A DNA stretch of 45,131 nucleotides from Bacteroidota bacterium (GCA_038746285.1 JBCDKT010000031.1:1-45131); one strand, 5' to 3'. Counted from the first letter of the stretch, positions 10,881 to 25,393 are shown. Notes: generated by a model not told the origin, from the letters alone. Made by a program: numbers and translations.

Positions 10881-13800
10881 CTACGCCGCGAGCTCGGCCT
10901 CGATCTGGGCAATCGAGTCGCGGAGCTCGGCGGCTTTCTCGAACTCCAGGTTCTCGGCGGCGGTCTCCATCTCGCGCGTCAGCTGGGCGACGAGGTCGCG
11001 CTTCTGGTCGTCGGTGAGGTACTTCACGACGGGGTCGGCAACGCGGGGGAGCTGGTCGGGGCCGGCGTAGTAGTGGACCTCGCGCTTCTCGTCCTGCGCC
11101 GCCTTGTGGTCGGCGATCGCGGTGCCCTTGCGGATCTGGTCGGTGGACTTCGATACGGTCTGCGGGACGATGTCGTGCTCCTCGTTGTAGGCCACCTGGA
11201 GGGCGCGCCGACGCTCGGTCTCGTCCATCATCCGCTGCATGCTGTCGGTCACCTTGTTGGCGTACATGATGACCGACGCGTTCGCGTTGCGCGCCGCCCG
11301 GCCCGCCGTCTGGATCAGCGAACGCTCGGAGCGGAGGAAGCCCTCCTTGTCGGCGTCGAGGATGGCGACGAGCGAGACTTCGGGGAGGTCGAGGCCTTCG
11401 CGGAGGAGGTTGACGCCGACGAGGACGTCGAACTCGCCGAGGCGGAGGTCGCGCAGGATGTCCACGCGGGCGAGGGCGTCGATGTCGGAGTGGAGGTAGC
11501 GGACGCGGACGCCGAAGCTGTCGAGGTAGTCGGTCAGGTCCTCGCTCATCCGCTTGGTGAGCGTGGTGACGAGGACGCGCTCGTTGCGCTCGACACGCGT
11601 GCGGGTTTCGTCGAGGAGGTCGTCGATCTGCCCGTCCACGGGGCGGACCTCGACTTCGGGGTCGAGGATGCCGGTCGGGCGGATGACCTGCTCGACGACG
11701 ATGCCCTCGCTCTGCTCCAGTTCGTAGTCGGCGGGCGTGGCGCTGACGAAGACGACGTGGTTGTGGAAGGCCTCGAACTCCTCGAACGTGAGGGGCCGGT
11801 TGTCGAGCGCGGAGGGGAGGCGGAAGCCGTGCTCGACGAGGTTCAGCTTGCGGGCGCGGTCGCCGTTGTACATCCCGCGCACCTGCGGGATCGTGACGTG
11901 GCTCTCGTCGATGGCGAGCATCCAGTCGTTGCCGTAGCTCTGCTGGAAGTAGTCGAGCAGGCAGTGCGGTCGGCTTCCCGGCTCGCGCCCGTCCATGTGG
12001 CGCGAGTAGTTCTCGATCCCCGAGCAGTAGCCGATCTCCTTGATCATCTCGATGTCGAAGATGGTCCGCTGCTCCAGGCGCTGCGCCTCCAGCATCAGGC
12101 CCTCGTTGCGGAGGACCGCGAGCCGCCAGCGCAGCTCCTCCTCGATGCTCGCAATCGCCCGGTCGAGTTGGTCTTTCGGGGTGACGAAGTGCTTGGCCGG
12201 GTAGATCGTCAGGAGGTCCTCCTTGCTCGTCTCCTGCCCGGTCAGCGGGTCGAACGACGCGACCGTCTCGACCTCATCGCCCCAGAACGCGATGCGGTAG
12301 GCCACGTCTTCGAGGTAGGCTGGGAAGACCTCGACCACGTCGCCCCGGACGCGGAACGCGCCCGGCTCAAACTCGACGTCGTTGCGGTTGTAGAAGACGT
12401 TGACGAGCTGGCGGAGGAGGTCGTCGCGGTCGACGACGGTGCCGGGCTGGACTTGGACGACCTGGGCCTTGTACTCCTTCGGGTCGCCGAGGCCGTAGAT
12501 GCACGACACGCTCGCAACGATGATGACATCTTTGCGCCCCGAGACGAGGGCCGAGGTGGCGCGCAGCCGGAGGCGGTCGATCTCCTCGTTGATCGCGAAG
12601 TCCTTCTCGATGTAGGTGTCGTTCGAGACGATGTACGCCTCGGGCTGGTAGTAGTCGTAGTACGAGATGAAGAACTCGACGGCGTTGTTCGGGAAGAACG
12701 CCTTGAACTCGGCGTAGAGCTGGGCCGCGAGGGTCTTGTTGTGCGAGAACACGAGCGTCGGCTTGCCGGTGTTCTGGACGACGTTCGAGAGGCTGAAGGT
12801 GTTGTGGACGAAGAGGCCGCCGTGCCCGGCGAGGAAGGTCTCGGGGCCGGGGACGGAGAGGTCGTAGACGTGGGGGTGCGGGTATGAGACTGGCTCGACG
12901 GCCTCGACGGGTGTCCAGCGTACGTCGCAGAGGGCGCGGAGCCGCTGCCAGCGCTCCCACCAACTCGCCGCGACGTTGCGCTGCACGGCCTCGCGGCGCA
13001 GCGCGTCGAGGGCGCACCGGAGCACCGTGCGGCACGGACGGCGCTGTTCGGTCTCCCAGTGCTGGACGGCGCTCCGCGAGACCCCGGCCCAGCCGCCGAG
13101 CACGCGGGTGGGCACGCCGAGTGTCTGCCGGAGCGTGCGGAGATCGGCCCCGCAGATCGGGACCACGTCCACGTTCGTGTTGCTCTTGCGACCGAGATGG
13201 GCGTTCAGCGCCTCCCGCTTTCGTGTCAGTCCGAAGCCGATGTGCTCGGCGAACCGGCGCAGGTCCTCCTGCCCGGAGACCGTGACCTGCCAGTACCAGC
13301 CGCCCGCATGGTTGCTGCTGGTGGCGCGCTTGAAGCGCCGCCGGAGCCGCGCCCAGATGCCGAAGCGCAGGAGCGCGTAGGCGAGGTCGGAGGCTAGCTG
13401 CTCGCTCGCCGTCGTCGCCGAGACCGCCCCGGCGCGCTCGACCGTGCCGTCGCCGTCGAAGTAGCCTCGCAGGAGCGTGCCGAGGTCGGTGTCGGAGAGC
13501 GAGGGCCAGAAGTCCGGCAGGTGCTTCTGCGCGGAGCCGGAGCCGCCCGCCGAGCGCGCCAGTTCGGCGAAGACGCGCCCGCCGATCTGGAAGTCCGAGG
13601 AGGAGCGTACCCGAACCGGCAGCCCGAGCGTGTCCACCGTAGCCTCGACATCCCGCCGGACCTCCTCGTCGCGGCTGGCGAGGACGACGTACGACGCCGT
13701 AGCGTGCCCTTCGGCGATGTATAGCCCAAGCAGGCGGAGGAGCGAGGGCGTCAGAGCGAGCGTAGCCGGGAGGCGCACGTTTGCTCCGACCTGAGCTCTT

Positions 13801-14618
13801 GCGGGACGCCAGCGCCCGCCGAGTCCTCCGGTCGCTGCGAGCACGCCCCGAAACACGGGAGCCGCTACCCCGCCGTGCCTGGGCTCTGGGGACCGCATAT
13901 CGTGGAGCTTGGTGTAAGGGTTGCCTCCGCTGAGTGCGGCGAACGGCCCAGTGAAAGCCCCGGGCCCCCGGTCTCCGACAAAGCTCAGCACCTGGTCCTG
14001 CGCATGAACGAACAGGCTCGTATCTCCGAGCTGATCGGTCAGGTCGAGGTCCGTGCGCCTGCCCCCGGACTCTAACTGCTCGGGCACGGGCAGGTAGTCG
14101 GTGGCGCGGGCGTCTGCTGTCTCGATGAGCGTGAGCCGCCCGTCTCGGAGTACCCACAGGTTGTGGTCCCCCGTGAGCGTCGCCCGGCGTCCGCACGCGG
14201 TGCGGAGACCGTACATCGCCGCCGGTGCGTCGTGACGGATGAGTGTGTGGACCGGGAAGAGCCGCACCTCGCCCGTCTCCGGGTCGAAGGCCTGGGTGTG
14301 CAGCCCCCGGCCTCGCACGTCGAGTTCCTCCGTATCGCCCCAGCGTGCTACCTCCGCCGCATCGTCCTCTAGCAGCGCGTCCATCCACGGACCGATGGCG
14401 CACACGCGCGGGACGCGCTCGCCGTCTGCGTCCTCGACCACAAACACCGGGTCGTCGTGGCCGATGCTCTTACCCGTGCCCGTGGCCCCGAGGAGGGTCT
14501 GGTAGCGGTCGCCGCGGAAGAGGCCCTCGGTCAGCTCGGCGATCGCGCCGGGCTGGTCGCCGGTCGGGCGGAACGGCGCGTCGAGGCGAAACGGGGTGTC
14601 GATCTTGGTGATAGCCAT
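10881..14618 (-). CDS. uvrB: UvrB excinuclease subunit interrupted by an intein
   Basis: Nucleotide-excision-repair helicase subunit that loads damaged DNA for UvrC. The translated product is 1245 residues: extein 1-50, intein 51-606, extein 607-1245, leaving 689 residues of UvrB after splicing, the usual length. Extein marks: [17 protein letters not shown] at the N-terminus, Walker A GATGTGK/T split by the intein, beta-hairpin region [27 protein letters not shown] Walker B-like motif, [37 protein letters not shown], and a C-terminal UVR motif ([17 protein letters not shown]). Repair would depend on splicing, because the ATP-binding loop is interrupted. The start is ATG 14618; an upstream in-frame TTG at 14645 is unlikely. 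A -7 box lies at 14650-14657. Confidence 0.93.
12801..14468 (-). mobile_element. Intein with LAGLIDADG homing endonuclease in the UvrB Walker A motif
   Basis: 556-codon in-frame insertion between Lys50 and the following Thr of UvrB (GATGTGK / TFSLSNVV). It has a Ser at intein position 1, TGDHNLWVL as block B (Thr and His near 99-102), LLGLYIAEG (246-254) and LRGYFDGDG (333-341) as the two LAGLIDADG motifs with both acidic residues present, [17 protein letters not shown] as block F, and the terminal GLFVHN with the required His-Asn; the +1 residue is Thr. Residues about 438-490 add a helix-turn-helix-like stretch ([20 protein letters not shown]). All splicing and endonuclease residues I can check are intact, so this looks like an active homing intein. 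The removed DNA length, 1668 bases, is an exact codon multiple. Confidence 0.93.
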
Positions 14619-14649
14619 AGCGCACGGGAGAAGCGAGGAGGGCAACTCC

Positions 14650-14792: not shown

Positions 14793-15908
14793 CTACGGCG
14801 TCCCGCCCACGGCGACGTCGGCCGGGTTGCCGTCGATCAGCTCGCCGAGCCAGTCGGCGTAGGGGCCGGGGTAGCGGTCGGGGAAGCGGAGGAAGGTGTG
14901 GTCGGCACCGGCCGCGAGGTAGGTGCCCCAACTGTCGGGGATCGTCGCCGCGGTCTCTTCGAGGGCTGCCTCGAACTGCTCGCCTGTGATCTCGAACGGC
15001 ATGCCGGTCAGCGGGTCGAACCCGAAGAAGAAGCGGATCGTCTGGTCCTGGGTGTACGATGACAGGCCGAACGTAGCGTCGGGGTAGCGCTGGTCGTAGT
15101 AGGCGTAGACCCCCTGCAGGCCGTCGGGCTGGAAGAGCGCGCCGGCGTCGTCGGGGAACGAGGCGGGGAAGTTGAAGAGCTGGGCAAAGGCCCCGCCGAG
15201 CGTGGGAGTGAAGACGGCGTCGCTGAAGAGGATCGGGCCGGAGTCGTCCAGGAGCGTGAGGCTGGCCCCGTCGAAGGCGTCGGCGACGGCGGCGAAGTTG
15301 ACGAGCGAGCCGAAGCCGCCGGCGCTGGAGCCGGTGAGCAGCACCTCGTCCACGTCGGCGAAGGCCGGGCGCAGGAGCGCGAGGTAGGCCTCGATGTTCC
15401 GGTGCCCGACGAACTGCTGCAGGCCGTCGACCCCGAGGACGAGCGCGTCGGGCGCGCTGCCACCGTGGACGTCGCCGGTGCAGTAGGGCACGTAGACCGC
15501 GTTCCAGTCGCCGATGGGGTTGCTGGGATCGTCGGCGTTGAAGAGGCCGAGGTTGCCGCCGGTCGCGACGAACCCGGTGACGGGGTTCACGAACTCGGCC
15601 TCGCCGAAGGCCGCCGGGTTGACCGAGCACGTCTCGGGGCTGAAGCACGCGCCGCCGCCTTCGAGGTAGATCACGAGGTCGTCGGAGCCCTCCTGGAAGC
15701 GGACGCCGAAGCCGGTCGGGGAGCCGTCGCGGCACTGCGCGCCCTCGGTCTCGACGAAGAACCACTGGCCGGGGTTGGCCTGCGCCTCGTCGAGCGCAGA
15801 GGTGTCACCGAGGTCGTCCCCGTCAGGGTCGTCGCTGTCGCAAGCCGGGAGGGCGAGGAGGAGCGCGCCGAGGCAGAGCACGGCGGCACGGAAGGGAAAA
15901 CGGGTCAT
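14793..15908 (-). CDS. Pectinacetylesterase/Notum-family lipoprotein (copy 1)
   Basis: 371-residue predicted surface lipoprotein (lipobox LALPAC, Cys23). Family marks are in the expected order: LVIYLEGGGACF (79-89, oxyanion-hole region), YVPYCTGDVHGG (139-150), the nucleophile elbow GSSAGGFG with Ser195, LLDDSGP (219-225), and GADHTFL near residue 336 with the catalytic His. The fold is an alpha/beta hydrolase that removes acetyl or acyl groups from polysaccharides or proteins; the substrate here is unknown. It is a tandem paralogue of the next gene upstream (16032-17165) and has its own -7 box and a terminator hairpin. The Asp-rich linker after the lipid Cys (DSDDPDGDDLGD) is typical of surface lipoproteins. 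Confidence 0.83.
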   Translation of the reverse strand: MTRFPFRAAVLCLGALLLALPACDSDDPDGDDLGDTSALDEAQANPGQWFFVETEGAQCRDGSPTGFGVRFQEGSDDLVIYLEGGGACFSPETCSVNPAAFGEAEFVNPVTGFVATGGNLGLFNADDPSNPIGDWNAVYVPYCTGDVHGGSAPDALVLGVDGLQQFVGHRNIEAYLALLRPAFADVDEVLLTGSSAGGFGSLVNFAAVADAFDGASLTLLDDSGPILFSDAVFTPTLGGAFAQLFNFPASFPDDAGALFQPDGLQGVYAYYDQRYPDATFGLSSYTQDQTIRFFFGFDPLTGMPFEITGEQFEAALEETAATIPDSWGTYLAAGADHTFLRFPDRYPGPYADWLGELIDGNPADVAVGGTP

Positions 15909-15939
15909 CGAAAAGAGGATGGTCTGGTGGGAGAAGCGC

Positions 15940-15947
15940 CCAAACTA
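15940..15947 (-). promoter_or_regulatory. -7 box TAGTTTGG for PAE-like copy 1
   Basis: TAGTTTGG is a full match to TAnnTTTG on the minus strand, 31 bases before ATG 15908. A TTTT stretch (15968-15971), about 20 bases further upstream, doubles as the U tract of the preceding terminator and may serve as the -33 element. Confidence 0.55.
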
Positions 15948-15967
15948 CGCCCGGACCTGGCCCGAGG

Positions 15968-16005
15968 AAAAGGGGAGGCCCCGCACCCTGCGCGGCAGCC
16001 TCCCC
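15968..16005 (-). terminator. Rho-independent terminator of PAE-like copy 2
   Basis: On the minus strand GGGGAGGC (16005-15998) pairs perfectly with GCCTCCCC (15979-15972) and is followed by TTTT (15971-15968). It lies 26 bases after the stop at 16032. Confidence 0.65.
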
Positions 16006-16031
16006 CGTAGCTCGGTCTCCTCGCCGGCAGA

Positions 16032-17165
16032 CTACCTGCCCTGGGCGACCATGAGGGACTGCGCGGCCGGGAGATCTGTCGCCTGGCCGTTCACCAGGTT
16101 CGCCACCCAGCTCGTGAGCGGCACGCCCTCGACAGTCGTGTTGTAAAACGCGTCGCCGAGCAGGAACGTGTGGTCGCTGCCGGGGACGAAGTAGGTCCCT
16201 GCGTTGGCCGGGAGAACCGGGCGGAGGTCGAACAGGCTGTTCTCGAACGCCGGCCCGCTCGGCCCGCCGAAGAAGGAGCGGATGACGAGGTCCCGGTCGT
16301 AGGTGAACAGGCCAAAGTTGCGGTCCGGGTTGGTGATCGCGTAGTACGGCAGGACGGCCTCCAGCCCGTCGCCGTCGGGCTGCGAGCAGATCGCGTCCGG
16401 GCAGCCGGCGGGGATCGACGCGTCGAGCGCCCAGAGGTCGCGCCAGGTCTGCTGGAGGCTGGGCGGGAAGACGGCGTCGTCCTCCACCGAGGGGCCGGAG
16501 TCGTTGAGGAGGTCTACGGGTGCCGGCGCGAGGCGGTCCGAGACGAGGCCGTAGGTCCCGACGGTGCCGAAGCCGCCGGCGCTGCTGCCCGAGAGCACGA
16601 CCTGGTCGGCCTGCCGGGCCGGGCCGTCGATGACGTTCAGCATCGCCTCCATGTTGCGGAGGCCGACGAAGTCCTGGCGGCCGACGCCGGGGACGCGGAC
16701 ACCGGTGGCGTCGCCGCTGTGGACGTCGCCCGTGCAGTAGGGCACGTAGAGCACGTTCCAGCCGAGGAACGGGTTGGCGGCGGCCGTGGAGGAGAACGCG
16801 CCGCTCTCGCCGACCTCCGCGACGCGGGCGTCGAAGTCGGCCTCGCTGAAGCGGCGCGGGTTGAGGAGGCAGGTGAGAAAGTCGAAGCACGCGCCGCCGC
16901 CTTCGAGGTAGATCAGGAGGTCGCGCGAGCCGGCGGCGCGGCGGAGCCCGAAGCCGGTGTCCGAGCCGTCGCGGCACTGCATCCCGTCGGTGGGGATCCA
17001 CTGCCAGTCGCCGGCATCGGCTGCCGAGAGGGCAGGGAGGAGCGGGCTGTCGTCGAACAGGCCCTCGGGGGCCGTCTCCTCGGGCGAGAAGGCGTCGCCG
17101 CAGGCCGAGAGGGCGAGGGCGAGGCCGAAGCAGGCGAGTGCCAGGAAGCGAGTCGGTAAGGGCAT
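16032..17165 (-). CDS. Pectinacetylesterase/Notum-family lipoprotein (copy 2)
   Basis: 377-residue lipoprotein (lipobox ALSAC, Cys22), homologous along its length to the gene at 14793-15908. It has LLIYLEGGGACF, YVPYCTGDVHSG, GSSAGGFG with Ser195, LLNDSGP and GSDHTFL with the catalytic His. Compared with copy 1 the central part differs (IPAGCPDAICSQPDGDG, two extra cysteines that could form a disulphide), which suggests divergence in substrate rather than a recent duplication. The frame is open upstream to 17273; I chose ATG 17165 because it starts a proper lipoprotein signal peptide. A -7 box (17197-17204) precedes it, and a terminator follows. Confidence 0.83.
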   Translation of the reverse strand: MPLPTRFLALACFGLALALSACGDAFSPEETAPEGLFDDSPLLPALSAADAGDWQWIPTDGMQCRDGSDTGFGLRRAAGSRDLLIYLEGGGACFDFLTCLLNPRRFSEADFDARVAEVGESGAFSSTAAANPFLGWNVLYVPYCTGDVHSGDATGVRVPGVGRQDFVGLRNMEAMLNVIDGPARQADQVVLSGSSAGGFGTVGTYGLVSDRLAPAPVDLLNDSGPSVEDDAVFPPSLQQTWRDLWALDASIPAGCPDAICSQPDGDGLEAVLPYYAITNPDRNFGLFTYDRDLVIRSFFGGPSGPAFENSLFDLRPVLPANAGTYFVPGSDHTFLLGDAFYNTTVEGVPLTSWVANLVNGQATDLPAAQSLMVAQGR

Positions 17166-17196
17166 GGCAAGACCGGGGATAGGTGAGAGAGACCGG

Positions 17197-17204
17197 TAAG
17201 ATAG
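17197..17204 (-). promoter_or_regulatory. -7 box TATCTTAC for PAE-like copy 2
   Basis: TATCTTAC on the minus strand, 31 bases before ATG 17165, the same distance as for copy 1 and for uvrB. Confidence 0.45.
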
Positions 17205-17260
17205 AGGCAGCAGCGGCGTGTGTCCAGGACCAGCGGCGCATCCGTCTAGCGCCACAGGAG

Positions 17261-17268
17261 TATGTTGG
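17261..17268 (+). promoter_or_regulatory. -7 box TATGTTGG, leaderless EVE-McrB promoter
   Basis: TATGTTGG, three bases (CGC), then ATG 17272. Together with the box 57 bases away on the other strand this forms a compact divergent promoter region. Confidence 0.5.
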
Positions 17269-17271
17269 CGC

Positions 17272-18963
17272 ATGCGCTACTGGATCTGGTCCGTCCGCCC
17301 CGAGCACTACCCGACGTTCGTCCGCACGAGCACCTTCGCCGTGCGACGCGTCGGGCGCAAGGCGATGCAGGAGGTGCGCCCAGGCGACCGCATCGTGGCC
17401 TACCTCTCGCGGCAGCGCGCCGTAGCCGGGCTGTTCGAGGCGACGAGCGCGGCGTTCGAGGACGCGACGGCCCTCGTCTCCGGCGGGACCTACCCGCACC
17501 GCCTGCGCGTCCGCCCCCTCGCGGCGCTCAACGAGGAGGTCCGGGTCTCCTACGAAGCCTTCGCAGGCAAGCTCACGGTGCTCGACGAGTACGCCCACCT
17601 CGGCGACCCGGACCGGCAGTTCCGGGCGGTGGCGCAGCGCGTGGTCCACCCGCTCCCGCCGGTCGACGGCAAGGTGCTGGAGTTCCTCGTCCGCGCCCGC
17701 GAAGGGACGGACTTCGAGGCGGTGATGACGGCGTACGAGCGCCTGCGGCACGCGCAGGGCGCGGAGCCCGAGGCCACGCCTACGGTCGTCCGCGAGGCTC
17801 CAGACCGCTATGAGGCCCCGCCGCTTGCGTCGTGGGACCGCGCCGCTGCCCTCGACCGGCTGACGGGCGCCGTCGAGGCGCGGGGGTTCGTCTACCAGCC
17901 GTGGCACGTCGCGGCGTACGTGACGGCGCTCAGGACGAAGCCGTTCGTCCTCCTCGCCGGCGTCACCGGGGTCGGGAAGAGCCGCCTACCGGTCCTCGTG
18001 GCTGAGGCGACGGGCGGGCATACGCGACTCCTCCCGGTCCGCCCTGACTGGACCGACAGCGCCGAGGTCCTGGGCTACACCGATCTCCCAGGCGCATTCC
18101 GGCCGGGCGTCCTCCTCGCCGCCGCCCGCGCCGCGGCCGAGCGCCCGGACCGCTACGCCGTCGCCGTGCTCGACGAGATGAACCTCGCCCGCCCGGAGCA
18201 CTACCTCGCCGAAGTCCTCAGCCGGATCGAGGGGCGGCAGCCGGCTCCCGGCGGTGGGTTTGAGAGCGCCCCGCTCACGGCTGCGTCGGACGTGCGCCTC
18301 CCGGCCAACCTCGGCCTCGTGGGGACGGTGAACATGGACGAGAGCGCGTTCGGGTTCAGCCGCAAGGTGCTGGACCGGGCGTTCACGCTGGAACTGTCGG
18401 ACGTCGATCTCGGCACCTGGCACGCTGCCCAAGCACAGCCGCCAACCTCCGACCCCTGGCCGGTGGCGGCGTGGTGGCCGCGCGCGGTCACGCTCGGCGG
18501 CCTCGGCGCGCTTTCGAAGCCGGAGCGGCAGCGCGTCGAGCGCGTGGTCGGCGTGCTCGCCGAGGCCGACGCGCTCCTCGCGCCTGCCGGCCTCGGGCTG
18601 GGGTACCGGCTCCGCGACGAGGCCGCTCTCTTCGTCCTCCACGCCGCCGAGACGCCCGGTGCCTTCCGCACCCGCGACGGCGAGCCCGTCGCCCCGCTCG
18701 ACCTCGCCCTGTTCCTGAAGCTCCTGCCGCGCATCGCAGGCGGGAGCCGGAGCGTCCGCCGCGCGCTCTTCGCCCTCCTCGGCTGGGCCACCGACGGCAC
18801 CTCGCTCGTCTCGGAAGACGACGCCCGCGAGGTTGTGGACGCGTGGGATCGGGCCGGCCGCGCGTCCGCCCTCGCCGAAGCCCGCTACCCGCGTACTGCC
18901 GCCCGCCTCGCGCTCATGGCGAACCGGCTCCAGGCGGACGGGTTTGCGTCGTTCTGGGAGTAA
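17272..18963 (+). CDS. EVE-domain McrB-like AAA+ ATPase (type IV restriction motor)
   Basis: 563 residues. The N-terminal part (about 1-130) is an EVE/PUA-like domain (MRYWIWSVRPEHYPTF, AMQEVRPGDRIVAYLSRQRA), a known reader of modified bases. A linker follows, then an McrB-type AAA+ domain: Walker A GVTGVGKS (230-237), Walker B VLDEMN (299-304) continuing into LARPEHYLAEVLSRIEG, sensor GTVNMDES (351-358) and KVLDRAF with the arginine. McrB proteins hydrolyse GTP to power McrC-type nucleases when the reader domain finds a modified site. The nuclease partner is probably the gene at 19820-21481, but a GNAT gene on the other strand lies between them. The start at 17272 is set by the leaderless promoter and the EVE N-terminus; the frame is open further upstream to 17218. 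Confidence 0.88.
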   Translation: MRYWIWSVRPEHYPTFVRTSTFAVRRVGRKAMQEVRPGDRIVAYLSRQRAVAGLFEATSAAFEDATALVSGGTYPHRLRVRPLAALNEEVRVSYEAFAGKLTVLDEYAHLGDPDRQFRAVAQRVVHPLPPVDGKVLEFLVRAREGTDFEAVMTAYERLRHAQGAEPEATPTVVREAPDRYEAPPLASWDRAAALDRLTGAVEARGFVYQPWHVAAYVTALRTKPFVLLAGVTGVGKSRLPVLVAEATGGHTRLLPVRPDWTDSAEVLGYTDLPGAFRPGVLLAAARAAAERPDRYAVAVLDEMNLARPEHYLAEVLSRIEGRQPAPGGGFESAPLTAASDVRLPANLGLVGTVNMDESAFGFSRKVLDRAFTLELSDVDLGTWHAAQAQPPTSDPWPVAAWWPRAVTLGGLGALSKPERQRVERVVGVLAEADALLAPAGLGLGYRLRDEAALFVLHAAETPGAFRTRDGEPVAPLDLALFLKLLPRIAGGSRSVRRALFALLGWATDGTSLVSEDDAREVVDAWDRAGRASALAEARYPRTAARLALMANRLQADGFASFWE

Positions 18964-19034
18964 GAGCCTGCTGAGGATTCACGCTCGCGGGCTACGAGCG
19001 GCCACAAACCGCCCCAGCGTCGTTGCGCTCGTCA

Positions 19035-19053
19035 CCCGATGCATGGCATCGGG
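19035..19053. terminator. Perfect hairpin between convergent genes
   Basis: CCCGATGC, ATG loop, GCATCGGG: a perfect 8-bp stem in the 149-base spacer between the convergent EVE-McrB and GNAT genes. There is no U tract on either side. It may be a terminator or part of a dispersed repeat. Confidence 0.35.
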
Positions 19054-19112
19054 CTCCGCCTGCGCCTCGGCGGGTTCAGTTTTCGCTCGCTCTCGCCTTC
19101 ACATTCGAAATC

Positions 19113-19739
19113 TCAACAGTCTCCGAAGCCCTGCCCCGCGAAGGCGGCCTCGACCTCCTCGAGGACGCGGCCGAACGCGGTAGCCTCCGGCGTCTCGGGG
19201 AGGTCGCCCGCGGTTGCCGCGACGGGGAGGTCGACCGTGGTCTCGCCTTCGTCGAAACCGGCCGTGCCACCGATCATCTGGGCGTACCGGGCGAGCGGCC
19301 GGTTCTGCGCCATCAGGACGGCGCGGAACGTCGCGATCCTGCGGCACCGCGCCTGGTGAAAGAGGACCGCGAGAAGCCGGCTCCCCAAGCCGTGCCGCTG
19401 CGCCTCGTCAGCGACGGTCAGAGCGACTTCGGCGACGCCTGGCTCCTGCGGTAGCTGCACGAACCGGCCGATGCCGAGCCCGACCGGCTCGTCCCCGGAC
19501 AGGTCGAGCGCTCCCCAGGCGACGTGGGTGCGCTGGTCGACGTCGGTGAGGTAGTCGAGCTGCTGCTCGCTGAGGTGGTCGAGGGGCGAGAAGAACCGCG
19601 TCAGGCGGGACGCGTCGGAGAGCCGGTCGAGCCCCCTTTTCAGAAGTGGTGCGTCGCTAGGCTGCACGGGTCGGAGAACGACGGGGCGGCCGTCGTCGAG
19701 GCGTAGGCGGAGCAGAGCGGGATCGGGCGAATCAGGCAT
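19113..19739 (-). CDS. GNAT-family acetyltransferase between the McrB-like and McrC-like genes
   Basis: 208-residue GNAT protein. The beta-strand start is VVLRPVQPSDAPLLKRGLDR; the acetyl-CoA site is VAEVALTVADEAQRHGLGSR (V-x-x-x-x-Q/R-x-x-G-x-G/A pattern), followed by LLAVLFHQA; and NRPLARYAQMIGG closes the fold. It resembles the acetyltransferase part of Pat/YfiQ-type protein lysine acetyltransferases, but its substrate cannot be told. Lying in antisense orientation inside a McrBC-like pair is unusual: either it is a passenger or it modifies the system. I chose ATG 19739, eight bases after a -7 box. Confidence 0.82.
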   Translation of the reverse strand: MPDSPDPALLRLRLDDGRPVVLRPVQPSDAPLLKRGLDRLSDASRLTRFFSPLDHLSEQQLDYLTDVDQRTHVAWGALDLSGDEPVGLGIGRFVQLPQEPGVAEVALTVADEAQRHGLGSRLLAVLFHQARCRRIATFRAVLMAQNRPLARYAQMIGGTAGFDEGETTVDLPVAATAGDLPETPEATAFGRVLEEVEAAFAGQGFGDC

Positions 19740-19747
19740 CAGGGGGG

Positions 19748-19755
19748 CCAAGGTA
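19748..19755 (-). promoter_or_regulatory. -7 box TACCTTGG of the GNAT gene
   Basis: TACCTTGG on the minus strand ends eight bases before ATG 19739, so the transcript is leaderless or nearly so. It faces away from the box of the McrC-like gene 51 bases to the right. Confidence 0.5.
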
Positions 19756-19806
19756 GTCCGAGGGGTGGGCACGCTGCAAACGCCGCCGGGGTGCGCCGCC
19801 GTGTCG

Positions 19807-19814
19807 GATATTCG
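19807..19814 (+). promoter_or_regulatory. Possible -7 box GATATTCG before the McrC-like gene
   Basis: GATATTCG differs from TAnnTTCG only at its first base and lies five bases before ATG 19820, the same geometry as the leaderless genes. This suggests the nuclease has its own promoter. Confidence 0.35.
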
Positions 19815-19819
19815 ACCGT

Positions 19820-21481
19820 ATGCCATCCCTGTTTACGATCACGACCGACCGCCTCCGGCTGACGTGGAGCGGGCCGCCCGCGCCGCCGGACCCGGCCGCG
19901 CCGCCCGGCTGCTTTGCCTTGCGTGGGCTCCGCGAGGGAGCCGCGCTGCGCGCTGAGGGCGAGCCCATGCTCCGGCTGGCGGAGCAGACGCCGTACCGCC
20001 TGTTCGTGACGAGCCGCTGCGGCGAACCGGTACAGGTCCGGCACCGGGACCCGGTGATCGTGGGGCGGCTGGCCGAGGACGACGACGGGCGCGTGGTCGC
20101 CGGGCCGGTCGACTTCGGCGGGCAGGTGGGGCGGAGCCGGTTCATGGTGACGGTGGGCGGCGAGGACGAGGTCGCCTTCGAGCTGGACGTAGTCCCGACG
20201 AAGGTATCGCACCGGGCGATGGAGCAGATGCGGACCGAGATCGACGAGGCCCTCGCCGGGCTGGCCTTCGAGTACCTCCGGGCGACGCAGGCCTTTTCCA
20301 TCGAAGCTGCTGTGCCGCCGCGCCGCGCGACGTGGCTGACGCTGCTGCGGCGCACCTTGCCCGGCCTCGAACAGGCGCTCGGCCAGGTCGCGGCGCGTCC
20401 GCACCGGGACCTGCGGCGCGAGGCGCGGCCGGTCCGCGTGGAGCAGGTGCAGCGGGCGGGGCCGTCCGTGCTGCGCGCCGTCCGCCAGGGGCAGGGGAGC
20501 GGGGCCGTAGAGCGGTTCCGAACCGGGAGGCCCGTGCGCTCCGTCCTGCCGACCCGCCGCGCCCTCGCGACGCTCGACACGACCGAGCACCGCTGGCTCC
20601 GCGCCCGCCTCGTGGCCGCGCGCCGCACCCTCACCGCGCTGCAGGCGGCCGAAGCGGCCCGCCCGCTCTCGGCCCGCCGCCGCCGCGTCCTCGCCGACCT
20701 TGACGAGGCCGAGACCCGCCTCGCCCGGATGCTCAGCCTCGCCCCGCTCGTGGCAGCCTCGCCCGGCCCGGTGCCTGCACCGACGCAGCGACTCGTCGCC
20801 GCGCCGGGCTACGCCGAGGCCCACGCCGCCTGCCGGGTGCTCGACCTCAGCCTCGCCCTCGCCGCCGGGCCCGTGCCGCACGCGACCAAAAACCTCCACC
20901 TGCTCTACGAACTGTGGACCTACCTCACGCTCGTCCAGGCCGTGGCCGACGTGCTCGGGCAGCCCGTCCCGCCGTCGGCCTTCTTCCAGGCCGAGCACCG
21001 GGGCATCCGGTTCCTGCTGCGGCGCGGGCGGGGGCACGGCGTCGCGTTCGAGCAGGGCGGGCGGCGGGTGCGGCTCGCCTACAACCCGCACTTCTCCGGC
21101 CGGACGGGTCTGATGGCGCAGCGGCCTGACATCCTGATGACCGTCGAGGACGGCGGACGCCCTCGGCGCTTCGTGCTCGACGCCAAGTACCGCCGCGACG
21201 ACAGCCCGGCCTATGCCCGCCGCTACGGCGCGGCGGGTCCGCCCGAAGACGCCCTCGGCGACCTCCACCGCTACCGCGACGCGATTGTCGAGACGCAGGC
21301 AGGGCGGGCCGAGCGGACCATCGACGAAGCCGTCGCGCTCTTTCCCGGTGCCGGGGGCGAGGCATTCGGCGAGAGCCGACTGTGGACGGCCATCGGGCGG
21401 ATCGGCGTCGGGGCGCTGCCGCTCGTGCCGGGCGAGACCGCCTACCTGAGCCGCTGGCTGCGCCGCGCGCTCGGGGGCTAG
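19820..21481 (+). CDS. McrC-like nuclease: DUF2357 plus PD-(D/E)XK domain
   Basis: 553 residues. The N-terminal half is a DUF2357-like region (about 50-310, with PTKVSHRAMEQMRTEIDEAL and SFTYL-like FEYLRATQAFS). A long Arg/Ala-rich helical part with coiled-coil character (250-310) follows. The C-terminal part is a DUF524/PD-(D/E)XK nuclease: LLYELWTYLTL (361-371) with the conserved Glu, Pro436-Asp437 in RPDILMTVEDG, Asp454-Ala-Lys456 in FVLDAKYRRD, and DLHRYRDAIV (481-490). This is the nuclease arrangement paired with McrB-like ATPases that carry GTVNxDE sensors, as found upstream at 17272-18963. Its stop overlaps the convergent lipoprotein stop within the four bases CTAG (21478-21481). Confidence 0.85.
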   Translation: MPSLFTITTDRLRLTWSGPPAPPDPAAPPGCFALRGLREGAALRAEGEPMLRLAEQTPYRLFVTSRCGEPVQVRHRDPVIVGRLAEDDDGRVVAGPVDFGGQVGRSRFMVTVGGEDEVAFELDVVPTKVSHRAMEQMRTEIDEALAGLAFEYLRATQAFSIEAAVPPRRATWLTLLRRTLPGLEQALGQVAARPHRDLRREARPVRVEQVQRAGPSVLRAVRQGQGSGAVERFRTGRPVRSVLPTRRALATLDTTEHRWLRARLVAARRTLTALQAAEAARPLSARRRRVLADLDEAETRLARMLSLAPLVAASPGPVPAPTQRLVAAPGYAEAHAACRVLDLSLALAAGPVPHATKNLHLLYELWTYLTLVQAVADVLGQPVPPSAFFQAEHRGIRFLLRRGRGHGVAFEQGGRRVRLAYNPHFSGRTGLMAQRPDILMTVEDGGRPRRFVLDAKYRRDDSPAYARRYGAAGPPEDALGDLHRYRDAIVETQAGRAERTIDEAVALFPGAGGEAFGESRLWTAIGRIGVGALPLVPGETAYLSRWLRRALGG

Positions 21482-23825: not shown

Positions 23826-25031
23826 TCACAATCCTCCGGTCCCTCGATCTTCCAGTCCTCCGATAGACATCTCCATCATCGCGTACTCCTTGTCGCGCAC
23901 GGCCCCGAGCTTGCCCAGCGCGTTGACGAGCGGCGCGTTCACGTCGAGCACCCAGCTCATCTCGCAGGCGTCGTAGCCCCGGGCGAGGCCGTCCTGGATG
24001 GTGGCGTCGATGAGCACGGCGTCGAACCCGCGCCCGTGAAACTCAGGGAGCACGCCCAGGAGCGGGAGCCGGATTTCGTAGACCCCGCCGAGCTTGGCGC
24101 GCGCCAGCAGCGTGGGCAGGCCGAGCGGGAAGAGGCGGCCGTCCGGGACGTGCCTGAGCGCCTGGTTCAGGTTGGGGATCGAGATCGAGAAGGCGACGGG
24201 GTCTCCTTCTTTTTCGAGGAGGAACACCAGCTCGGGCTCGATGACCTTCCTGAGGTCTTTGGCGAGGTGCTCGAACTCGCGCTCGGTCATCGGGACGTGG
24301 CCCCAGTTGCTCGACCACGCCTCGTTGTAGATGCGGAGCACGGCGGCCGCGTCGTCCCAGAACCGGCCCGTGTCGAGCGTGCGAAGGCGGAGCCCAGGGT
24401 TGCGGCGAAGGACGACCTCGGCCCCGCGCCGGAGCTTGTCCTTGTGGACGTAGGCCTCGTGGACGTAGTACGCCCACATCGTCATCGCGCGCTCGAACCC
24501 GTAGCGCTCAAGGAAGTCGACGTAGTACGGCGGGTTGTAGGGCATCAGAATCGCCGGCTCGCGGTCGAACCCCTCGACGAGCAGGCCCGAGGTGTCGTTC
24601 ATCGACGGGCTCGTCGGGCCGCGCACGCCGGTCAGACCGCGCGCGCGGAGCCAGGCGGTCGCGGCGTCGAGGAGGGCCTCGGCCACGCCGTAGTCCTCGG
24701 CGCACTCGAAGAAGCCGAAGAAGCCGTTGCCGTCGTCGTACTTCTGGAGGTGCATCCCGTTGCGGATCGCCGCGACGCGGCCGACAGTGTCGCCGCGCTC
24801 GTTCTCGGCCAGGAAGAGTTCGATCTCGCCGTGCTCGAAGAATGGGTTTTTCTTCGGGTTCAGCACCTTCGCCTGATCCATCCGCAGCGGCGCGACCCAG
24901 ACCGGATGGTCGGCGTAGTGCCGGTACGGGAAGTCGATGAACCGGCTCTTGTCTTTGCCCGAGGCGACGCGCCGGACGACTATTCGCTGACTGGCTGATT
25001 GGCTGATTGGCTGATTGACAGGCAAGGTCAT
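23826..25031 (-). CDS. GNAT-type acyltransferase, candidate ceramide synthase
   Basis: 401-residue protein of a Bacteroidota family annotated as N-acetyltransferase. Marks: FIDFPYRHYADHPVWVAPLR (about 30-49), NPFFEHGEIELFLAE, GVRGPTSPSMNDTSGLLVEG, and LGVLPEFHGRGFDAVLI, an acyl-CoA-binding-like loop. It overlaps the four-helix gene by four bases (ATGA) and lies in one operon with a serine palmitoyltransferase. Bacterial ceramide synthases are known to be GNAT-like, so N-acylation of a sphingoid base is a reasonable inference but not shown by the sequence. The N-terminal residues VNQPISQSASQ are encoded by an 8-bp tandem repeat (24987-25018). Confidence 0.72.
   Translation of the reverse strand: MTLPVNQPISQSASQRIVVRRVASGKDKSRFIDFPYRHYADHPVWVAPLRMDQAKVLNPKKNPFFEHGEIELFLAENERGDTVGRVAAIRNGMHLQKYDDGNGFFGFFECAEDYGVAEALLDAATAWLRARGLTGVRGPTSPSMNDTSGLLVEGFDREPAILMPYNPPYYVDFLERYGFERAMTMWAYYVHEAYVHKDKLRRGAEVVLRRNPGLRLRTLDTGRFWDDAAAVLRIYNEAWSSNWGHVPMTEREFEHLAKDLRKVIEPELVFLLEKEGDPVAFSISIPNLNQALRHVPDGRLFPLGLPTLLARAKLGGVYEIRLPLLGVLPEFHGRGFDAVLIDATIQDGLARGYDACEMSWVLDVNAPLVNALGKLGAVRDKEYAMMEMSIGGLEDRGTGGL
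24987..25018 (-). repeat. Four 8-bp tandem repeats at the start of the acyltransferase gene
   Basis: On the plus strand: CTGACTGG, CTGATTGG, CTGATTGG, CTGATTGA. The repeat lies inside codons 5-15 of the acyltransferase. The unit length is not a multiple of three, so gain or loss of one copy would shift the frame. Confidence 0.8.
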
Positions 25032-25393
25032 CGGGAGCGCGACGTTCGGCGAGCGGCGGCGAAGATTTTGGTCAGTTCGGTGGCCTCGTTCAGCAGGTCG
25101 TTCAGCCGGCTGGCAGACACCGTCTCCGTTTCGCCCAACAACTCAAGCCAGAGCACAGACTCGTCGGCTTCTTCTACGACGATGTCTAGCTTTGCGACGA
25201 AGGCAGCCCGGGAGCGGGCGCGGCAGACGGCGCGGTAGTTAGCTGCTACCGACGTGGCGGACCGAAGCAGTTGCCTGCCCATGACGCGAGCTCCATCCGT
25301 TTTCGGGAGCGTTCGGAACAGCCGGACGACGCGCACGGCGAATGCCTTCGTGCGTTGCCGGAGCGCCTCCGCCTGCTGCTCGTAGTCGCTCAT
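25028..25393 (-). CDS. Four-helix bundle protein (23S IVS/IVP family)
   Basis: 121-residue, fully helical protein of the family first seen inside 23S rRNA intervening sequences. Marks: MGRQLLRSATSVAANYRAVC (38-57) with the conserved R-x-x-S-x-x-A-N-x-x-E/A pattern, RARSRAAFVAKLDIVVEEAD, and ESVLWLELL. Here it is not inside an rRNA gene but between the serine palmitoyltransferase gene (29 bases upstream) and the acyltransferase gene (four-base overlap). The function of the family is not known; stand-alone copies often sit beside biosynthetic genes. Confidence 0.8.
   Translation of the reverse strand: MSDYEQQAEALRQRTKAFAVRVVRLFRTLPKTDGARVMGRQLLRSATSVAANYRAVCRARSRAAFVAKLDIVVEEADESVLWLELLGETETVSASRLNDLLNEATELTKIFAAARRTSRSR

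Follow-up and report, generated by a model that had tools for sequence, protein, structure and literature searches.

An EVE-reader McrBC-type gene pair in Rhodothermales, interrupted by an antisense Pat-type acetyltransferase gene that is probably a passenger

The two subunits of McrBC are usually described as the products of one operon. In a 2024 census, McrB proteins with an NxD signature formed a large branch, no member of which had been characterised (Bell et al. 2024, PMC11090510), and the fusion of EVE to McrB has been described as the commonest EVE architecture in defence, with occurrences in nearly 300 genera (Bell et al. 2020, PMC7641849). The locus described here shares with the NxD branch an AAA+ GTPase-type McrB in which NxD is followed by E, a reader fused to that McrB, and a partner in which an N-terminal DUF2357 precedes a PD-(D/E)xK domain; however, the genes here are not always co-operonic and may instead be GNAT-interrupted or unlinked. 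The GNAT links reported in PMC7641849 are EVE-GNAT fusion proteins, whereas here the GNAT is a separate antisense gene, and a toxin-antitoxin of the GNAT-EVE type was likewise ruled out because the GNAT and the EVE domain lie in separate genes on opposite strands. The open-access literature yielded no description of an acetyltransferase as a separate gene inside a McrBC locus. Among the candidate defence systems of PADLOC, PDC-M26 is represented at the locus by its A component, which was matched by the EVE-McrB of the window (E 3e-34) and by all 19 EVE-McrB proteins; PDC-M26B was matched by 1 of 20 nucleases, and no PADLOC model matched the GNAT.

The window, i.e., the whole stretch of DNA analysed, comprises 45,131 nucleotides of a Bacteroidota bacterium (GCA_038746285.1, JBCDKT010000031.1:1-45131) and is contig 31 of the genome referred to below as G000. 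An earlier note on this DNA had read three genes side by side, encoding an EVE-McrB, an antisense GNAT and a DUF2357 nuclease, and all three lie where it had placed them, each backed by Pfam (Table 1). Its assignment of the first and third to a single type IV system of the McrBC type, one half each, is also supported. The pair does not have the one-operon layout in the window, a layout typical of McrBC without being essential to it, as the antisense GNAT gene lies between McrB and nuclease, and no methyltransferase or two-component gene was seen beside the pair within the window.

Table 1. Features of the interrupted McrBC-type locus in the window, and conserved 10-mer sites at the related loci of family f11
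Feature	Position	Strand	Evidence or remark
TATGTTGG, match to the TAnnTTnG -7 box	17261-17268	+	3 bases before the predicted EVE-McrB start
EVE-McrB (EVE reader and McrB-type AAA+)	17272-18963	+	Pfam, PADLOC, orthologue motifs, model, fold match
Pat/PatZ-type GNAT, free-standing domain between the two genes	19113-19739	-	Pfam, PDB profile, model, Foldseek
80-bp spacer between the divergent GNAT and nuclease starts	19740-19819	none	
TACCTTGG, match to the TAnnTTnG -7 box	19748-19755	-	8 bases before the predicted GNAT start
McrC-like nuclease (DUF2357, then PD-(D/E)xK)	19820-21481	+	Pfam, invariant catalytic residues
GTAGCATACG sites	L081:10367-10376, L082:9508-9517, L083:6740-6749, L084:8810-8819, L117:8481-8490		

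The EVE reader domain occupies the N-terminus of EVE-McrB (residues 1 to about 130) and is marginal by sequence, its Pfam score of 23.3 bits barely exceeding the cut-off of 23; AAA_5 scored 29 bits. For an AlphaFold model based on 19 orthologues (mean pLDDT 81.7), the best PDB match was the EVE protein PH1033 (Foldseek, E 2e-9, TM 0.8 over the target), and this match upholds the weak Pfam call. In the fold search, E. coli McrB was one of the AAA+ proteins matched by the AAA+ part of the model. Walker A (G-x-T-G-x-G-K), Walker B (DE) and the NxD signature (N354-M-D356-E357) are all present, and G230, T232, G233, G235, K236, D301, E302, N354 and D356 are invariant in the 19 orthologues, as is the arrangement N354-x-D356-E357, i.e., NxD followed by E. 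Judged by this signature, in which E or D usually follows NxD, EVE-McrB fits the NxD form of McrB. The model contains no long coiled coil, with no helix of more than 24 residues, and membership of the CoCoNuT group was therefore ruled out.

The nuclease matched both DUF2357 (E 3e-31) and PDDEXK_7 (E 6e-31) in Pfam, and its PD-(D/E)xK motif reads P436-D437 ... D454-A-K456, with D437, D454 and K456 invariant in 20 orthologues. No other DUF2357 gene was found in its genome, and exactly one such gene was found in each of 15 genomes tested, closed genomes included; these data strongly imply that, where the nuclease gene stands alone, its evident partner is the EVE-McrB encoded elsewhere in the genome.

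The GNAT has 208 amino acids and matched Acetyltransf_1 in Pfam (E 2e-7). The closest solved structure by PDB profile was Rv0998 (4ava, E 3e-38), and the top Foldseek match of its model (mean pLDDT 88.7) was 4avb (E 9e-17). Residue E104 is invariant in 18 homologues and aligns with the Glu mutated in MsPat (4onu, E234A). By profile and model, the protein is a predicted Pat/PatZ-type lysine acetyltransferase domain, active-looking and with its catalytic Glu kept; it shares fold, catalytic Glu and sequence similarity with Rv0998, MsPat, S. lividans Pat and E. coli PatZ, but it is a bare, free-standing domain without the cyclic-nucleotide or acyl-CoA-synthetase regulatory part of those enzymes. 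This assignment to protein-lysine acetyltransferases leaves unsupported the suggestion in the earlier note that the GNAT blocks a nucleotidyl-type signal. The dN/dS of the GNAT (0.16-0.39) falls within the values obtained for McrB and nuclease and is close to that of McrB within family f11, values that mark the gene as under purifying selection.

Among 245 genomes of the class, McrB was found in 24, the nuclease in 24 and both in 23, and all 23 genomes with both close homologues belong to one order, Rhodothermales. Co-occurrence fails in a distant case and in one genome, 77% complete, that has the nuclease only. Relatedness among the genomes makes these counts non-independent; at the genus level the association remains strong. 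Many families of Rhodothermales are without the pair, a phylum-wide search returned only distant McrC matches outside the order, and a related-locus search of genome contigs returned a single relative, L080.

Gene arrangements were read by tblastn on fetched loci. The three-gene order, for which the earlier note had advised a search of related genomes, is kept in five genera of two families, with the antisense GNAT between the pair in G000, G002, G173, G177, G178, G179, G180 and G181. The G173 locus is spread over two contigs, the ends of which overlap by 17 bases, and the nuclease N-terminus lies beside the GNAT. Because the antisense arrangement recurs in seven genomes besides that of the window, it is neither a chance open reading frame nor an assembly artefact. 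McrB directly adjoins the nuclease, as a plain operon, in G001, G176 and family f10. G001, in which the McrB stop codon TAG is followed by ATGATG, belongs to the same genus as G000 and so supplies the close relative with adjacent genes that the earlier note had named as evidence against its idea of a functional unit; a profile search of the whole G001 and G176 genomes returned no GNAT of the Pat type. The proposed role of the GNAT as a new component of the system is thus unproven, with the pair adjacent and GNAT-free in these two genomes and a plain operon in another family.

McrB and the nuclease are not adjacent in six genomes (G151, G152, G153, G154, G165 and G134), being 423 kb apart in the closed genome G152, 11.5 kb apart in the closed genome G165, and on different contigs in the draft genomes. 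The pair can thus do without linkage. Where nucleases are unlinked, the neighbours that were tested are housekeeping-type genes (lipase, ABC-2 transporter, DUF2911), and no second McrB was found among those of G152, G151 and G154. A GNAT in G153 was considered as an additional arrangement beside the nuclease and rejected, as it sits at a contig end without the nuclease N-terminus. Related GNATs occur at other places in other genomes, and in f10 genomes the Pat-type GNAT domains lie in open frames mostly of 930-970 codons, which is as long as full-length PatZ.

On a concatenated tree, the GNAT-carrying genomes together with G001 and G176 form one clade (support 95/97), on which the presence of the GNAT needs 3 changes. 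These changes are best read as one GNAT insertion in the ancestor of two families, followed by two losses, and this reading is preferred because the alternative would call for several separate insertions at one junction and in one direction. The GNAT tree places the GNATs of the locus on one side of a branch with moderate support (80/68), recovers the pair G000 and G002 of family f1 and the six members of f11 as subgroups, and agrees with the host tree except in the order of G173 and G177. The earlier note's view of the GNAT as a possible invader was partly right. The McrBC pair itself is, judging by these comparisons, inherited vertically in one Rhodothermales clade, mostly beside uvrB, which lies next to McrB whether the pair is a plain operon, interrupted or split.

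The surroundings of the pair were also compared. A comparison covering G151, G152, G153, G161, f11 and f10 (loci L101, L102, L105, L109, L081 and L086) found the neighbours GDPD or FG-GAP of the nuclease, and the neighbour uvrB of McrB, in linked and unlinked forms, which suggests an ancestral order of uvrB-McrB-nuclease-GDPD that would have been broken at the junction of McrB and nuclease. The uvrB gene of the window (10881-14645, - strand) contains an intein with a LAGLIDADG homing-endonuclease domain; the uvrB of G152, in which the pair is unlinked, also has an intein (L102:10756-14487), and in most relatives the uvrB gene called next to the locus has an ordinary length. Two tandem pectinacetylesterase-like genes (14793-17273, - strand) lie between uvrB and EVE-McrB in the window, and G001 has three copies. 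Further along the window, a gene for a 23S rRNA-intervening-sequence-type protein (25028-25393, - strand) sits amid ordinary chromosomal genes and is adjoined by a second, unrelated GNAT-like gene (23826-25031).

The earlier note had placed a -7 box shortly before each of the three genes. A scan of the 60 bases before each of 287 called genes gave 19 occurrences of TAnnTTnG on the sense strand against 0 on the other, a strand bias which indicates that the note had recognised a real signal of this lineage. Matches were present before EVE-McrB and the GNAT, but the sequence upstream of the nuclease, GATATTCG, does not match TAnnTTnG, and the two positions are not kept in orthologues; a conserved box before each gene was accordingly rejected. 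The usual distance of the element from the gene start in these genomes is 27-55 bases, and it should be noted that gene starts are predictions, an uncertainty which the box-to-start distances carry. In family f11, the GNAT and nuclease starts are 22-32 bp apart and enclose GTAGCATACG, a near-palindromic 10-mer that is identical in all five f11 genomes with this spacing and is confined to the region between the divergent GNAT and nuclease genes; it is a possible operator or bidirectional promoter.

With respect to restriction, the GNAT is probably a passenger, and a role as a regulator is possible. In the ten-genome clade, the GNAT was retained in 8 of 10 genomes, the pectinacetylesterase gene in 8 of 10, and uvrB near McrB in all 10. 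The pectinacetylesterase gene beside McrB is an unrelated neighbour with no plausible link to restriction. Since the GNAT is retained only as well as this gene, position by itself is not enough to make it a component, and since the entire neighbourhood keeps its gene order in the GNAT-carrying clade, its position is expected from vertical inheritance alone. Furthermore, in both genomes that lost the GNAT the pair survives with its motifs intact, indicating that the cutting pair does not need it. Set against a passenger are the one spot held in 8 of 10 descendants, the purifying selection, the short f11 spacing and the 10-mer; that spacing and element could reflect shared control.

The alternative that survives best, although it is unlikely, is that the GNAT is an optional regulator which acetylates either McrB or the nuclease on a lysine, such as K236 of Walker A or K456 of the DAK motif, and so links restriction to acetyl-CoA supply. 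Pat enzymes act on active-site lysines of their target enzymes, as established for acyl-CoA synthetases, and the Pat/PatZ-type fold with its intact Glu, the position kept in eight genomes, the tight divergent spacing with its conserved element, and the status of the sandwiched GNAT as the only Pat-type GNAT found in the genomes that carry it are all consistent with such a role. However, the GNAT was lost twice with no visible change in the pair, and its position is kept no better than that of the unrelated pectinacetylesterase gene. Across the McrB and nuclease orthologues, neither a lysine nor a substitution follows the presence of the GNAT, and genomes without the GNAT have the conserved lysines just as invariably. 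The two genomes that lost it share 2 and 1 substitutions exclusively, no more than other pairs of genomes do. That a Pat-type GNAT acetylates a McrBC lysine as a true metabolic switch, tying restriction to the level of acetyl-CoA, is a still more doubtful proposition.

It is improbable that the antisense gene matters by its transcription instead of its protein, insulating the nuclease from transcription of McrB while a divergent promoter balances expression of GNAT and nuclease. The convergent 3' ends of McrB and GNAT, which in relatives are 1-39 bp apart or overlapping, and the close f11 starts with an element found only there would suit such an arrangement, but the GNAT protein is under purifying selection with its active site kept, the spacing in G000 and G002 is 80-130 bp with GTAGCATACG absent, and operon and unlinked forms persist without the GNAT. 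A poor case can likewise be made for the pair as a housekeeping machine that has left defence, like the McrB-derived division protein PcdA of Staphylococcus, which has degenerate motifs and no linked McrC (PMC10602043): vertical inheritance, a fixed place beside uvrB outside any defence island, one nuclease copy per genome and long retention when unlinked would fit, but all nucleotide-binding and nuclease motifs are intact, unlike those of PcdA, and many families of the order do without the pair.

The preferred reading, with a probability of roughly 0.6, is that the pair in the window is an intact EVE-reader McrBC of the NxD type that acts in trans, beside an accessory passenger GNAT. The pair occurs as a plain operon, GNAT-interrupted or unlinked, and the McrB and nuclease proteins must therefore meet in trans. 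By analogy with their families, the EVE domain would presumably bind a modified base, the McrB ring would hydrolyse GTP and translocate, and the DUF2357/PD-(D/E)xK partner would activate the ring and cut DNA. The GNAT, a putative lysine acetyltransferase, would most likely act on a cellular substrate of its own, and its main effect on the pair is probably to end co-transcription and to give the nuclease a separate promoter.

One lineage thus shows the pair as an operon, interrupted by an antisense gene and far apart, with both genes kept together throughout, and these three layouts offer a natural experiment on whether a machine built from a hexamer and a nuclease depends on co-transcription. 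The pair of the window carries the NxD signature of a branch without a characterised member in the 2024 census (PMC11090510), and G000 and G001, of one genus and respectively with and without the GNAT, are a ready pair for asking if the GNAT touches restriction.
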